Assembly: GCF_000025325.1 (NCBI RefSeq)
Contig: NC_013743.1
Location: forward strand, 682,001 to 746,000
Reading direction: 5' to 3'
Source: Haloterrigena turkmenica DSM 5511
GTDB lineage: Archaea; Halobacteriota; Halobacteria; Halobacteriales; Natrialbaceae
DNA: 64,000 nt
The stretch's first letter is position 1. Each line of letters starts with the position of its first letter. The translations under genes and the position numbers were made by a program. Below, piece after piece: positions 9,607-38,204 of the stretch. Under the pieces are notes generated by a model. It saw nothing but the letters and a program-made list of their open reading frames with translations, was not told the DNA's origin and did no database searches.

Positions 9607-11529
9607 ATGACTGATATCGGTGGATTCCAGGATCACGTCGCCCGCATCGATCTCTCGGAGGGGGAGGTCGCGTACGAGTCGATCGACGACGAGGACGCGA
9701 AGAAGTATATCGGCGCACGCGGCCTCGGGGTAAAGCACGTCTTCGAACAGGGTCCCGACGTCGACCCGCTCGGGCCAGACAACCTGCTGGCCTTCATGAA
9801 CGGGCCGCTGTCGGGGACGCAGACGACGATGAGCGGTCGGATCGCCGTCTGCACGAAATCGCCGTTGACGGGCACCGTCACGGACAGTCACCACGGCGGC
9901 TGGTCGGGTGCCCGGCTGAAGTGGGCCGGCTTCGACGGCCTGCTGTTCGAAGGCGAAGCCGACGAGCCGGTCTACGCCTACATCGAGGACGGCGAGGTCG
10001 AACTCCGAGACGCCTCTCACCTCTGGGGGGAGGGCTTCCACGACACGCGTGACACGATCGAGGAGGAGGTCGACGGCGCCTACGGCAAGAACCTCTCGAT
10101 CATGGGGATCGGCCCCGGCGGCGAGAACGGCGTCAAGTACGCCTGCATCATGAACGAGGACGATCGGGCCTCCGGTCGCGGCGGTACGGGCTGCGTCATG
10201 GGGTCGAAGAACCTCAAGGCGGTGGTCGTCAAGTCCGGGACGAAGATGCCCAAACCGGCGGACAAGGAGACGTTTATGGAGGGCCACCAGCAGGCGATGC
10301 AGGCCATCCAGGAGTCGGAGGTCACCGCGCCCAACGAGGGCGGCCTCTCGATGTACGGCACCAACGTCCTCATGAACATCGGCGAGGAGATGGACGGCCT
10401 CCCGACGAAGAACGGCCGGTACACCTCCACGGAGAGCATGCGCGAGGCCGAGGGCGCCGACATCGACGCCGAGCGCGTCTCCGGCGAGAACGTTCGCGAG
10501 AACATCCTCGTCGACGAACCGACCTGTCACTCCTGTCCGGTCGCCTGCAAGAAGGAAGTCGAGGTGACGGCGATGCACAAGGGCGAGGAGATGAACGTCC
10601 GCACGGAGTCCTACGAGTACGAATCGGCCTACGCGCTCGGCCCGAACTCCGGGCACACCGACCGGGACAAGATCGCCCTCATGATCGATCGCTGTAACGA
10701 CATGGGCGTCGACACTATCGAGACCGGAAACATGCTCGCGATGGCCATGGAGATGTCCGAGGAGGGCAAACTCGAGGACGAAGGCGAACTCGAGTGGGGC
10801 GACCACGAGACGATGCTCGAGCTGATCGAGCGCATCGCCTACCGCGAGGACGACCTCGCGGACCTGCTCGCCGAAGGGCCGCGCCGCGTCGCCGACCGGA
10901 AGGACGCCCACGACAACTCGCTCGCAGTCAAGGGCCAGACCATCGCGGCCTACGACCCCCGCTGTATGAAAGGGATGGGCATCGGCTACGCGACCTCGAA
11001 CCGCGGTGCCTGCCACCTGCGCGGGTACACGCCGGCCGCCGAAATCCTCGGCATCCCCGAGAAAGTCGACCCCTACGAGTACGAGGGCAAGGGCGAACTC
11101 ACCGCCCAGTTCCAGGACCTCCACGCGATCAGCGACTCGTTCGACATCTGCAAGTTCAACGCCTTCGCGGAGGGCATCGAGGAATACGTCACCCAGTACA
11201 ACGGGATGACCGGTCTCGACGTCACCGAGGACGAACTCCTCGAGGCCGGCGAGCGCATCTACAACCTCGAGCGCTACTACAACAATCTCGTCGGCTTCGA
11301 CGGCAGCGACGACTCGCTGCCAGAGCGCTTCCTCGAGGACGGCATCCCCGGCCAGGGTGCCAGTGAGGGCGAGTACTGCGAACTCGAGGAGATGAAAGAG
11401 GAGTACTACGACCACCGCGGCTGGGTCGACGGCGTCGTCCCCGACGAGAAACTCGACGACCTCGGAATCGATATCGGCCCCGGAACGGGTGTCTCCGCAG
11501 GCGACTCGGCGGCGCCGGCCGACGACTGA
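9607..11529 (+). CDS. aor: Tungsten-dependent aldehyde ferredoxin oxidoreductase, copy 1
   Basis: Oxidises aldehydes to carboxylic acids with ferredoxin as acceptor, using a bis-pterin tungsten (or molybdenum) centre and one [4Fe-4S] cluster in the cytoplasm. The 640-residue length is typical. Cluster ligands are visible as CHSCPVAC (Cys307, Cys310, Cys314) and Cys515 in DSFDICKFN; the N-terminal ARGLGVKHVFEQGPDVDP and GRGGTGCVMGSKNLKAVVVK blocks are family hallmarks. A Shine-Dalgarno GAGGAG sits just before the ATG. A close paralogue is at 34718-36649, with near-identical 3' DNA but a divergent middle. The physiological aldehyde is not readable from sequence. Confidence 0.92.
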   Translation: MTDIGGFQDHVARIDLSEGEVAYESIDDEDAKKYIGARGLGVKHVFEQGPDVDPLGPDNLLAFMNGPLSGTQTTMSGRIAVCTKSPLTGTVTDSHHGGWSGARLKWAGFDGLLFEGEADEPVYAYIEDGEVELRDASHLWGEGFHDTRDTIEEEVDGAYGKNLSIMGIGPGGENGVKYACIMNEDDRASGRGGTGCVMGSKNLKAVVVKSGTKMPKPADKETFMEGHQQAMQAIQESEVTAPNEGGLSMYGTNVLMNIGEEMDGLPTKNGRYTSTESMREAEGADIDAERVSGENVRENILVDEPTCHSCPVACKKEVEVTAMHKGEEMNVRTESYEYESAYALGPNSGHTDRDKIALMIDRCNDMGVDTIETGNMLAMAMEMSEEGKLEDEGELEWGDHETMLELIERIAYREDDLADLLAEGPRRVADRKDAHDNSLAVKGQTIAAYDPRCMKGMGIGYATSNRGACHLRGYTPAAEILGIPEKVDPYEYEGKGELTAQFQDLHAISDSFDICKFNAFAEGIEEYVTQYNGMTGLDVTEDELLEAGERIYNLERYYNNLVGFDGSDDSLPERFLEDGIPGQGASEGEYCELEEMKEEYYDHRGWVDGVVPDEKLDDLGIDIGPGTGVSAGDSAAPADD

Positions 11530-34717: not shown

Positions 34718-36649
34718 ATGACTGAACTCGGCGGATTCCAAGACAACGTCGCACGTATCGATCTGAGCGATGGGGAGGTGAACTACGAGTCGATCGACGA
34801 CGAGGACGCGGAGAAGTATATCGGGGCTCGCGGCCTCGGTGTGAAGTACGTCTTCGAACAGGGTCCTGACGTCGATCCGCTCGGGCCGGACAACCTGCTG
34901 GCCTTCATGAACGGGCCGCTGTCGGGAACGCAGGTAACGATGAGCGGTCGGATCGCCATCTGCACGAAATCACCGCTGACGGGCACCGTCACGGACAGCC
35001 ACCACGGCGGCTGGTCGGGTGCCCGGCTGAAGTGGGCCGGCTTCGACGGCCTGCTGTTCGAGGGACAGGCCGACGAGCCGGTCTACGCCTTCGTCGAGGA
35101 CGGCGAGGTCGAACTCCGGGACGCCTCCCACCTCTGGGGGAAGGGCGTCCACGAGACCCGCGATACGATCGAGGAGGAGGTCGAGGGAGCCTTCGGCAAG
35201 AACCTCTCGATCATGGCGATCGGTACCGCGGGCGAGAACCTCGTTCGCTTCGGGAACATCATGAACGAGGACGATCGGGCTTCCGGTCGCGGCGGCACCG
35301 GCTGTGTCGCCGGCTCGAAGAACCTCAAGGCGGTGGTCGTCAAGTCCGGGACGAAGATGCCCAAACCGGCGGACAAGGAGACGTTCATGGAGGGCCACCA
35401 GCAGGCGATGCAGGCCATTCAGGAGTCGGAAGTCACCGCACCCAACGAGGGCGGCCTCTCGATGTACGGCACCAACGTCCTCATGAACATCACGGAAGAG
35501 ATGGACGGCCATCCGACGAAGAACGGCGTCTACACCTCAGGGAACGCCTACAACGAGAGCGAGGCCGATCGACCGCACGACCTCGACGCCGACCGCATCA
35601 GCGGCGAGAACGTTCGGGAGAACATCCTCGTCGACGAGCCGACCTGTCACTCCTGTCCGGTCGCCTGCAAGAAGGAGGTCGAAGTCGACGTGATGCACAA
35701 GGGCGAGGACATGAACATCCGGATGGAGTCCTACGAGTACGAGTCCGCGTGGGCGCTCGGGACGAACTCCGCCAACGACGACCGAGATCAGATCGCCCTC
35801 ATGATCGACCGCTGTAACGACTTCGGGATGGACACCATCGACACGGGCAACATGCTCGCGATGGCCATGGAGATGAGCGAGAAGGGGAACGTCGACGAGG
35901 ACGTCAACTGGGGCGATACCGAACAGATGGTCGAGATGATCGAGCGCATCGCCCACCGCGACGGCGACCTCCCCGACGCGCTCGCGGAGGGCGCCGAGGG
36001 CGCGGCCGAGCGGTTCGACGCCCACGACTGCCGACTGGACGTCAAGGGCGAGACCATCGCCGCCTACGATCCCCGCTGCCTGAAGGGGATGGGCATCGGC
36101 TACGCGACCTCGAACCGCGGTGCCTGCCACCTGCGCGGGTACACCCCCGCTGCGGAGATCCTGGGTATCCCGGAGAAGGTCGACCCCTACGAGTGGGAGG
36201 GGAAGGGCGAACTCACCGCCCAGTTCCAGGACCTCCACGCCATCTCGGACAGCTTCGACATCTGCAAGTTCAACGCCTTCGCGGAGGGCATCGAGGAGTA
36301 CGTCACCCAGTACAACGGGATGACCGGTCTCGACGTCACCGAGGACGAACTCCTCGAGACCGGCGAGCGCATCTACAACCTCGAGCGCTACTACAACAAT
36401 CTCGTCGGCTTCGACGGCAGCGACGACTCGCTACCCGAGCGCTTCCTCGAGGACGGCATTCGCGGCCAGGGTGCCAGCGAGGGCGAGTACTGTGAACTCG
36501 AGGAGATGAAGGAGGAGTACTACGACCACCGCGGCTGGGTCGACGGCGTCGTCCCCGACGAGAAACTCGACGACCTCGGCATCGACATCGGCCCCGGAAC
36601 GGGCGTCTCCGCGGGCGATAGCGGCGCTGCGGCACCGGGCGACGACTGA
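34718..36649 (+). CDS. aor: Tungsten-dependent aldehyde ferredoxin oxidoreductase, copy 2
   Basis: 643-residue paralogue of the enzyme at 9607-11529, with the same reaction (aldehyde to acid, ferredoxin-linked). Cluster ligands are Cys310, Cys313, Cys317 and Cys516. The N- and C-terminal thirds are almost identical to copy 1 at DNA level. The region around residues 260-295 differs (VYTSGNAYNESEADRPHDLD here, RYTSTESMREAEGADID in copy 1), as does residues 385-440, which could change substrate range or regulation. It lies downstream of the formate dehydrogenase, which supports a role in aldehyde handling. Confidence 0.92.
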   Translation: MTELGGFQDNVARIDLSDGEVNYESIDDEDAEKYIGARGLGVKYVFEQGPDVDPLGPDNLLAFMNGPLSGTQVTMSGRIAICTKSPLTGTVTDSHHGGWSGARLKWAGFDGLLFEGQADEPVYAFVEDGEVELRDASHLWGKGVHETRDTIEEEVEGAFGKNLSIMAIGTAGENLVRFGNIMNEDDRASGRGGTGCVAGSKNLKAVVVKSGTKMPKPADKETFMEGHQQAMQAIQESEVTAPNEGGLSMYGTNVLMNITEEMDGHPTKNGVYTSGNAYNESEADRPHDLDADRISGENVRENILVDEPTCHSCPVACKKEVEVDVMHKGEDMNIRMESYEYESAWALGTNSANDDRDQIALMIDRCNDFGMDTIDTGNMLAMAMEMSEKGNVDEDVNWGDTEQMVEMIERIAHRDGDLPDALAEGAEGAAERFDAHDCRLDVKGETIAAYDPRCLKGMGIGYATSNRGACHLRGYTPAAEILGIPEKVDPYEWEGKGELTAQFQDLHAISDSFDICKFNAFAEGIEEYVTQYNGMTGLDVTEDELLETGERIYNLERYYNNLVGFDGSDDSLPERFLEDGIRGQGASEGEYCELEEMKEEYYDHRGWVDGVVPDEKLDDLGIDIGPGTGVSAGDSGAAAPGDD

Positions 36650-36727
36650 GTTCGGCGTCTCCCGACCGGTTTCTTTTGTGGACCGCAGATAGCGTGGTCA
36701 GTACAGGCGAAAGGGTGTGCACTCACC

Positions 36728-37020
36728 GTGAGCGAACGAAGTGAGCGAACGGGCCGAGGAACCCCCGAAGCCGCGCCATTGGCGCGGCTTCGGGGGTGAC
36801 GTGGTTCGAAAGACGCTATGCGTCTTTCGTCATCAAGCGAGACGGCTTTGCCGTCTCGAACGACCGCGCTTTTCATCAACGCTAAGCGGAATCTTCGATC
36901 CCGCGAGGTCGTCGGTGCGAAGCGCCGACTGCAAGCGATTCCGAAGGAATCGCCCAGTCCAAAAGAGCGCGAATCGCTCTTTTGAGGATTTTGCCGAGTG
37001 CGGTCGCGAAGCGACCGCAC
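36728..37020 (+). repeat. Array of seven consecutive hairpins in non-coding DNA
   Basis: After a direct repeat GTGAGCGAAC (36728-36737, 36741-36750) come seven stem-loops. Arms are 36761-36777/36781-36797 (17 bp), 36807-36816/36820-36829 (10 bp), 36838-36846/36850-36858 (9 bp), 36911-36918/36922-36929 (8 bp, one G-T pair), 36935-36942/36946-36953 (8 bp), 36961-36969/36975-36983 (9 bp) and 36998-37007/37011-37020 (10 bp). Six have loops of exactly 3 bases (ATT, TAT, TTT or GAA). No gene is seen between 36650 and 37090. The first hairpin, 110 bases after the AOR stop, could also terminate transcription. Confidence 0.85.
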
Positions 37021-37090
37021 GCAGCGCGAAAGGTTGGTGAGCGACGTAGTTAGCCCCCAGTATCAAACCGGCGCGAGTGGAACGGTTCAC

Positions 37091-37726
37091 ATGGCGACCG
37101 AACGGTCCGACGTCAGGATCCACGAGCCGCGGGGCGACAACCAGTGGCTCACCGGGCTCGTGTTCGTCGCGCTCGCGGCCCAGTTCATGACCGTCAGCAT
37201 GCTCGCCGCGTCGATGGCACCCGGCTACGATTTCGCGCAGGGGGCGATCAGCGATCTCGGCGTGATCGACGAGACGGCGCCGCTGTTCAACGCGTCGCTG
37301 GTCGCCGCCGGCGCGCTGAACCTCGTCGGCGGCTACCTCTTCTACCGCTCACACGGCACACGATGGATTCTGGCCGTCTACGTACTCGCCGCCATCGGGG
37401 CGACCGGCGCGGGCGCCGTCCCGCTCGACACCGGCGACCTCCACGGGCTGTTCGCCCTCGCGGCCTTCCTCGGATTCAACCTCGAGGCGATCGCCAGCGG
37501 GACTCGCGTCGCCGGCCCGATGAAGGCGATTTCGGTCCTCGCCGGGGTCGTCGGACTCGCCTTCGTCGCGGTGATGGCCGTCGGCGACGCCGGCACTCCT
37601 GCGGTCTTCGGCCCGATCGGCCACGGCGGCGCGGAGCGGCTGATCGTCTACCCGCCGATGCTGTGGCTGCTGGCCTTCGGCGGCTATCTGCTGGCCGAGC
37701 CGCCGATTGACGCTGCCGCGGACTGA
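37091..37726 (+). CDS. DUF998 family membrane protein
   Basis: 211-residue hydrophobic protein with six predicted helices, matching DUF998: GYDFAQGAISDLGVIDETAP is the conserved N-terminal loop and ERLIVYPPMLWLLAFGGYLL the last helix. The ATG at 37091 is used; the frame is open from 36998 into the hairpin array. Function is unknown. It sits alone between two non-coding stretches. Confidence 0.82.
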   Translation: MATERSDVRIHEPRGDNQWLTGLVFVALAAQFMTVSMLAASMAPGYDFAQGAISDLGVIDETAPLFNASLVAAGALNLVGGYLFYRSHGTRWILAVYVLAAIGATGAGAVPLDTGDLHGLFALAAFLGFNLEAIASGTRVAGPMKAISVLAGVVGLAFVAVMAVGDAGTPAVFGPIGHGGAERLIVYPPMLWLLAFGGYLLAEPPIDAAAD

Positions 37727-38204
37727 CTCGAGTACGGCCCCGCTCGAGGATGTGCCGGTTACTCGCTCGCGGATCGCGCCTCGAGCGAACCGACGGCGGA
37801 TCCGATACGAGGGGCCCTCGGTCGGCGGTACAGCACGTAGTTCCTCGTGAAGATGGGAGGCCGTCCTGCCCACCGTGGCAACAGGGATTTCCACACCCAC
37901 CCCAGCCGATTCGCTCGCTCCTTGCAGTCGCTCGCTCATCCAGAGGAAGACGCTTCGCGACTTCCAGGCCTTCACTCACAGGTTCGCGAAGACCTCGCAC
38001 GACATCGATGACCGTTCTCGCATTTGCTCACGGGTCACTTCGTTCCCCGTTCGCTTTCGAGGTGCTCCCGTCGGTCGCACCTCGCTCCCCTCGGACGGCC
38101 AATAGCGCGCGCCACCGCAACGGTAAACTGTCGAATCAGTAGTCGACCACTAGAAGCGCGAGCGCCGATGAACGTATCCCCGCTCCGTTCCTACGGGGTC
38201 TCCC
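37727..38204. other. Gene-poor region with inverted repeat CTTCGCGA
   Basis: About 480 bases with no convincing gene; reading frames on both strands have atypical composition. It contains alternating tracts rich in TCGCTCGCTC and an 8-base perfect inverted repeat, CTTCGCGA at 37953-37960 and TCGCGAAG at 37984-37991. It may be a decayed mobile-element remnant or structured non-coding DNA; no transposase motif was found. Confidence 0.45.

Follow-up and report, generated by a model that had tools for sequence, protein, structure and literature searches.

The window analysed here, a 64,000-nucleotide stretch of Haloterrigena turkmenica DSM 5511 DNA, has no gene by codon-usage scoring between a stop codon at 36649 and an ATG at 37091, and a dense row of inverted repeats lies in this interval (Table 1). 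The open reading frame ending at 36649, recognised on sight from its sequence, presumably encodes an aldehyde ferredoxin oxidoreductase-like protein. A second stretch of this gene, 94% identical, is found at 11186-11529 of the window, and additional copies are present on other contigs as well as in the other Haloterrigena genomes.

The original prediction had described seven tandem inverted repeats at this place, six perfect and one with a single G-T pair, and had called the array non-coding; both statements held when we re-examined the locus. Its account of the loops was right in that most have three bases, but one has five. It had overlooked an eighth hairpin, the left hairpin with its tandem G.A steps, and a long-range pairing that joins 36877-36880 with 37033-37036 and 36989-36994 with 37026-37031. 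The hairpins are real and far above chance: with a perfect hairpin defined as a stem of at least 8 bp and a loop of 3-5 nt, Markov controls of the whole window gave 14-33 such hairpins per 64 kb, so about 0.1 is expected by chance in 260 bp. Against shuffles, the 311-nt segment has a folding z-score of -8.7 for RNA and -7.8 for DNA, and no shuffle equals it.

Table 1. Hairpins, modules and core parts of the array, in window coordinates
Feature	Position	Strand	Structure or remark
Left hairpin, two tandem G.A steps	36726-36752	+	CCGT-GA-GC-GA-AC-(GAA)-GT-GA-GC-GA-ACGG
Perfect hairpin	36761-36797	+	17-bp stem, loop ATT; variable module with variants at orthologous and other loci
Two-hairpin junction module	36801-36864	+	GTGGTT-(36807-36829)-TCATCAAG-(36838-36858)-AACGAC
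Perfect hairpin	36807-36829	+	10-bp stem, loop TAT
Perfect hairpin	36838-36858	+	9-bp stem, loop TTT
Conserved T-tract GCTTTTCAT	36868-36876	+	directly 5' of the core; in nearly all copies
Left arm CAAC, outer stem	36877-36880	+	pairs with GTTG 37033-37036; arm covariation
Inserted multi-hairpin block	36882-36988	+	CTAA-(36886-36904)-GAGGTC-(36913-36931)-TGCAA-(36935-36953)-CCAGTC-(36960-36984)-AGGA; 89-97% identity across five loci of the window's genome
Eighth hairpin, one A-C mismatch	36886-36904	+
Hairpin with one G-T pair	36913-36931	+
Perfect hairpin	36935-36953	+	8-bp stem, loop GAA
Perfect hairpin	36960-36984	+	10-bp stem, 5-nt loop CGAAT
TTTTGC, 5' side of inner core helix	36989-36994	+	search pattern, model column
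Apical hairpin of core, perfect	36998-37020	+	10 bp, GTGCGGTCGC-GAA-GCGACCGCAC
GCGAAA (3' side of core helix, one T-G pair)-G-GTTG	37026-37036	+	right core edge

A dispersed element with a covarying core

Rather than a one-off array, the hairpins form a single long copy of a dispersed, modular, non-coding haloarchaeal element. Its conserved core (36877-37036 in the window) consists, in order, of a 4-nt arm, G, TTTTGC, CGA, a hairpin, GCAGM, GCAAAA, G and the complementary arm, and comparison of copies shows that one or more hairpin or junction modules can be inserted in it. The GA-tandem hairpin, its inner pairs varying, stands before most copies. The junction module, which is closed by a GTGGTT/AACGAC helix with one G.G mismatch, is of a type present in other copies and also outside the element: in L057 and L076, GTGGTT-hairpin-TCATCA-hairpin-AACGAC stands apart from any core, so modules seem common to several elements. 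A different intergenic layout, in which three hairpins are separated by the fixed spacers TCATCCAC/AGCTGCT/GCATCA/AACGAC followed by GAAGACCTCGCACGA, is seen in L044 (1114-1276) and L062 (1095-1269), with similar unfolded traces at 37910-38010 of the window, and is perhaps a second family of like style.

Recurrence of the segment in haloarchaea, which had been suggested as a check, is extensive. A DNA search gave 29 matches in the window's genome and matches in 5/5 other genomes of the genus, and the core pattern occurs at 95 places in named genomes; among the matches listed, all hosts are haloarchaea (including Natrinema, Natronorubrum, Halobacterium, Halomarina and Halorubrum) except one, an Anaerolineales record that is likely a chance match. 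With a covariance model of the core, the window copy scores E = 2.9e-10, and a class-wide sample yields matches in 125 of 194 genomes (51 of 65 genera), with up to 27 per genome and about 20 typically. In the window's genome the model gives 24 matches, every one of them on the main chromosome; for the 18 strongest of these, p = 0.002 if matches were spread by length. Plasmid records yielded few core matches and phage records none, and the core pattern was without a match in the IMG/VR viral collection. Among Rfam covariance models, none matched the window stretch at E <= 1, even at lax thresholds, and none matched 16 other element loci at E <= 0.5. We found no description of the family in the open-licence literature; an earlier one may exist in subscription papers.

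On the + strand of the window, the core folds into a 4-bp outer stem, usually a G.G mismatch, the TTTTGC/GCAAAA helix, an internal loop and the apical hairpin. The original prediction, which saw in the array a structured nucleic acid and more than a terminator, had staked itself beforehand on compensatory change in the stems, and such change is strong. Across 64 distinct cores, 91.9% of cells are paired in the proposed structure (74.1% in shuffles), 214 cells carry double changes (83 in shuffles), and the covariation score is 0.405, against 0.110 in shuffled data, with 0/500 shuffles reaching it; sliding the partners by 1-3 columns lowers the score to 0.025-0.085. The six TTTTGC/GCAAAA pairs are invariant and uninformative, because they are fixed by the search pattern. 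The signal sits in the arms and the apical hairpin, both of which are free to vary: 8/10 pairs of the apical hairpin (helix 2) have changes on both sides, and in a separate count the arms are paired in 150/168 cases, whereas 1000 shuffles average 110 and never exceed 123. Mismatches within stems are biased (G.A 55 vs T.C 3; G.T 8 vs A.C 2), which identifies the window + strand as the folding strand. The fold is compatible with RNA or with folded single-stranded DNA. A kink-turn reading of the core was dropped on inspection, since the A in the GA step varies between copies, and a U.A-U triple-helix reading was set aside on inspection as lying beyond sequence tests.

A stable non-coding RNA is a serious rival to the boundary element that we favour below. 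The element would then be an independent structured RNA, transcribed from the + strand and present in about 20 diverged copies per genome, with modular junctions of changing size. Strong covariation, long-range closing arms, insertion of whole junction modules and the tolerance of G-U and tandem G.A on one strand only all favour such an RNA, and the left gene points away in 23/70 copies, leaving space for a promoter. However, 91 copies aligned on their left hairpin show neither an A+T peak nor a promoter at a conserved place upstream of it, no terminator follows the core, and + strand transcription there would run antisense into a gene. The loops described below are likewise unlike a selected RNA loop, and overall we consider the RNA rather unlikely.

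Gene ends and the boundary proposal

In 59 of 115 distinct cores, the stop codon of an opposite-strand gene lies within 40 nt of the right edge, mostly at 4-10 nt (51 at 4-9), compared with 58 of 1900 random positions (3%). About half of the copies are without an adjoining opposite-strand stop codon, among them the window copy, which is less typical in that both its neighbours are + strand genes, the ATG on its right being about 55 nt away. Some copies that stand off stop codons (L059, L085, L096, L102 and similar ones) share extra flanks, with CAGTACAGGCGGAG on the left and GCACGTGTAGT on the right, and in L059 both motifs occur together on each side.

With 1.2 Mb of chromosome stretches from one genome as the intergenic baseline, and with neighbour counts that pool related species, convergent gene pairs surround 32/70 copies (21% of intergenic regions; p 4e-6) and divergent pairs only 2/70 (24% of intergenic regions; p 2e-6). 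The neighbours gyrB, engB, the polD (DNA polymerase D) large subunit and tbsP recur in different genera; other genes beside a core include TFS, pan2, thermosome and methionine adenosyltransferase. At the gyrB locus, the element is present in five of six Haloterrigena, the sixth (genome G001) having only a short spacer, and the arms change jointly between species (CGAC/GTCG, CAAA/TTTG, CGAAA/TTTCG). In L061 (1158-1617), two cores stand back to back in the space separating convergent genes, and the right edge of each faces the stop codon of one of these genes. Opposite element orientations between the same convergent pair were also seen in different species (L041 vs L055, L063, L068 and L071; L008 vs L061).

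Our tentative reading, to which we give a probability of about 0.45, is that the element, anchored where transcription units end and with modules inserted into its core, may be a REP/BIME-like folded boundary, which would probably limit read-through between these units. The T-tracts on both sides of the core could act as archaeal terminators, one for each of the adjoining transcripts, while the fold would lower read-through and antisense transcription between neighbours. A limit on read-through is suggested because of the gene-end position, the T-tracts at both core edges and the role of T-stretches in haloarchaea, T-stretch termination being established in Haloferax (PMC7237163). The haloarchaeal T-stretch terminators (Berkemer et al. 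2020, PMC7237163) resemble the element in having T-tracts close behind stop codons and, upstream of some termination sites, hairpins; they differ in that the folded core here lies beyond or between T-tracts and belongs to a recurrent sequence family. Against a boundary speak the copies without an adjoining opposite-strand stop codon, the T-tracts of just four T, and the fact that a purely DNA terminator would need no strand-specific pairing. The element is structurally new; the comparisons show directly its family, fold, folding strand, position bias, homogenisation within genomes and flipping hairpins, and it is its termination or boundary function that we infer.

REP/BIME elements are defined by a GTAG or CGTC tag beside a 20-40 nt palindrome, together with a RAYT transposase. 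The GTAG/CGTC tags do not occur in the conserved core, where the flanks are CGA/GCAGM and TTTTGC/GCAAAA, and no intact Y1/RAYT-type transposase was found in the window's genome. The likeness lies elsewhere: the bacterial elements, treated in PMC3733652 and PMC2817692, are short, multi-copy extragenic palindromes of mosaic make-up, enriched at gene 3' ends, and each of these traits is found here. Unlike them, the present element is archaeal, its stems vary while the structure is kept, and it has nested junctions and long-range arms.

Copying, mobility and inverted loops

Inserted-module blocks have a mean identity of 0.84 between loci within a genome and 0.67 at the same locus across species (20 and 11 pairs from hand-chosen loci with differing layouts), a difference which implies that copies are homogenised. 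Conversion-like copying would account for this, although homogenisation is also an expected outcome of transposition, and a non-autonomous mobile element was among the original suggestions. In its fullest form this would be a PATE- or REP-like element of IS200/IS605 type, with the 4-nt arms as guide and cleavage sequences. Part of the suggestion stood, in that copies are dispersed and homogenised within genomes, the gyrB site is empty in one species, and the same convergent genes hold the element in opposite orientations (L041 against its four counterparts); the arms, moreover, are arranged beside a subterminal hairpin, and haloarchaeal PATEs offer a precedent (PMC3119063). Against mobility, identical housekeeping gene-end positions are kept across genera, the own-genome matches are all on the main chromosome, with few in plasmid records and none in phage or IMG/VR records, and the sole Y1 transposase match (PF01797, in the window's genome) is a 38-codon fragment. 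An old mobile element of this type is weakened by the missing intact Y1 transposase, although a TnpA below detection or in other species could exist. At the window locus, genomes G002 and G004 have unrelated-looking sequence in place of the element, which leaves no clean junction to read; gyrB offers the better empty site.

The PATEs of Haloquadratum (PMC3119063) are likewise haloarchaeal, non-coding and multi-copy, with palindromes near an end and no terminal inverted repeats seen. The element described here differs in being mostly chromosomal and anchored at gene ends, with many modules and a core that covaries across 51 genera, and no IS605 relative or intact TnpA was found for it. PATEs and IS200/IS605 elements are marked by subterminal palindromes, without terminal inverted repeats or target duplication; here a right-end palindrome is present, and on the left neither an element boundary nor a target motif could be defined. 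All in all, we judge a mobile element to be improbable.

The loops have a history of their own. Among hairpins with the same stem and flanks, 89 pairs (not independent of one another) differ by a flip, the loop being reverse-complemented, 72 by a single substitution, and 117 are identical. Single hairpins flip from GAA to TTC even between orthologous loci; at gyrB, two species differ by TTC versus GAA in GGGTCAGC, and GCGAGTTCGC occurs with TGC and with GCA. Nearly all loops are triloops, and 180/247 are GNA or TNC in an even, strand-symmetric split (GNA 92, TNC 88), which is the feature that fits a selected RNA loop poorly. GNA triloops closed by C-G are described as extraordinarily stable in DNA by Yoshizawa et al. 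(1997), as cited in PMC7432603. The flipping suggests that DNA hairpins form in the cell, and flips may arise through extruded hairpins or through template switching.

Taken further, template switching at very stable DNA hairpins might make and perfect intergenic palindromes as a by-product without function. Flips are as frequent as single substitutions and occur between orthologues too, which speaks for such a process, and so does the abundance of GNA/TNC loops in intergenic hairpins (46/88, vs 12/113 coding) and of intergenic hairpins themselves, which are 4-7 fold above Markov expectation. It leaves unexplained the covariation of the separated arms (36877-36880 with 37033-37036), the conserved spacers, the strand-specific G.A pairs and the gene-end position; the conserved arm pairing argues against it as the whole story, and we hold it to be very improbable. 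A broader description, of an undescribed class-wide haloarchaeal family of structured RNA, or of single-stranded DNA that folds, present about 20 times per genome, with exchangeable junction modules, tandem G.A helices and hairpins inverting in the genome, strikes us as somewhat unlikely.

If the boundary proposal is true, most haloarchaea share a gene-end family that stands beside gyrB, polD and the proteasome ATPase and is missing from Rfam. In the hairpins whose GNA/TNC loops flip, the genomes seem to have kept a natural record of hairpin formation by DNA inside living, high-salt cells, a process that strain comparisons would make measurable.
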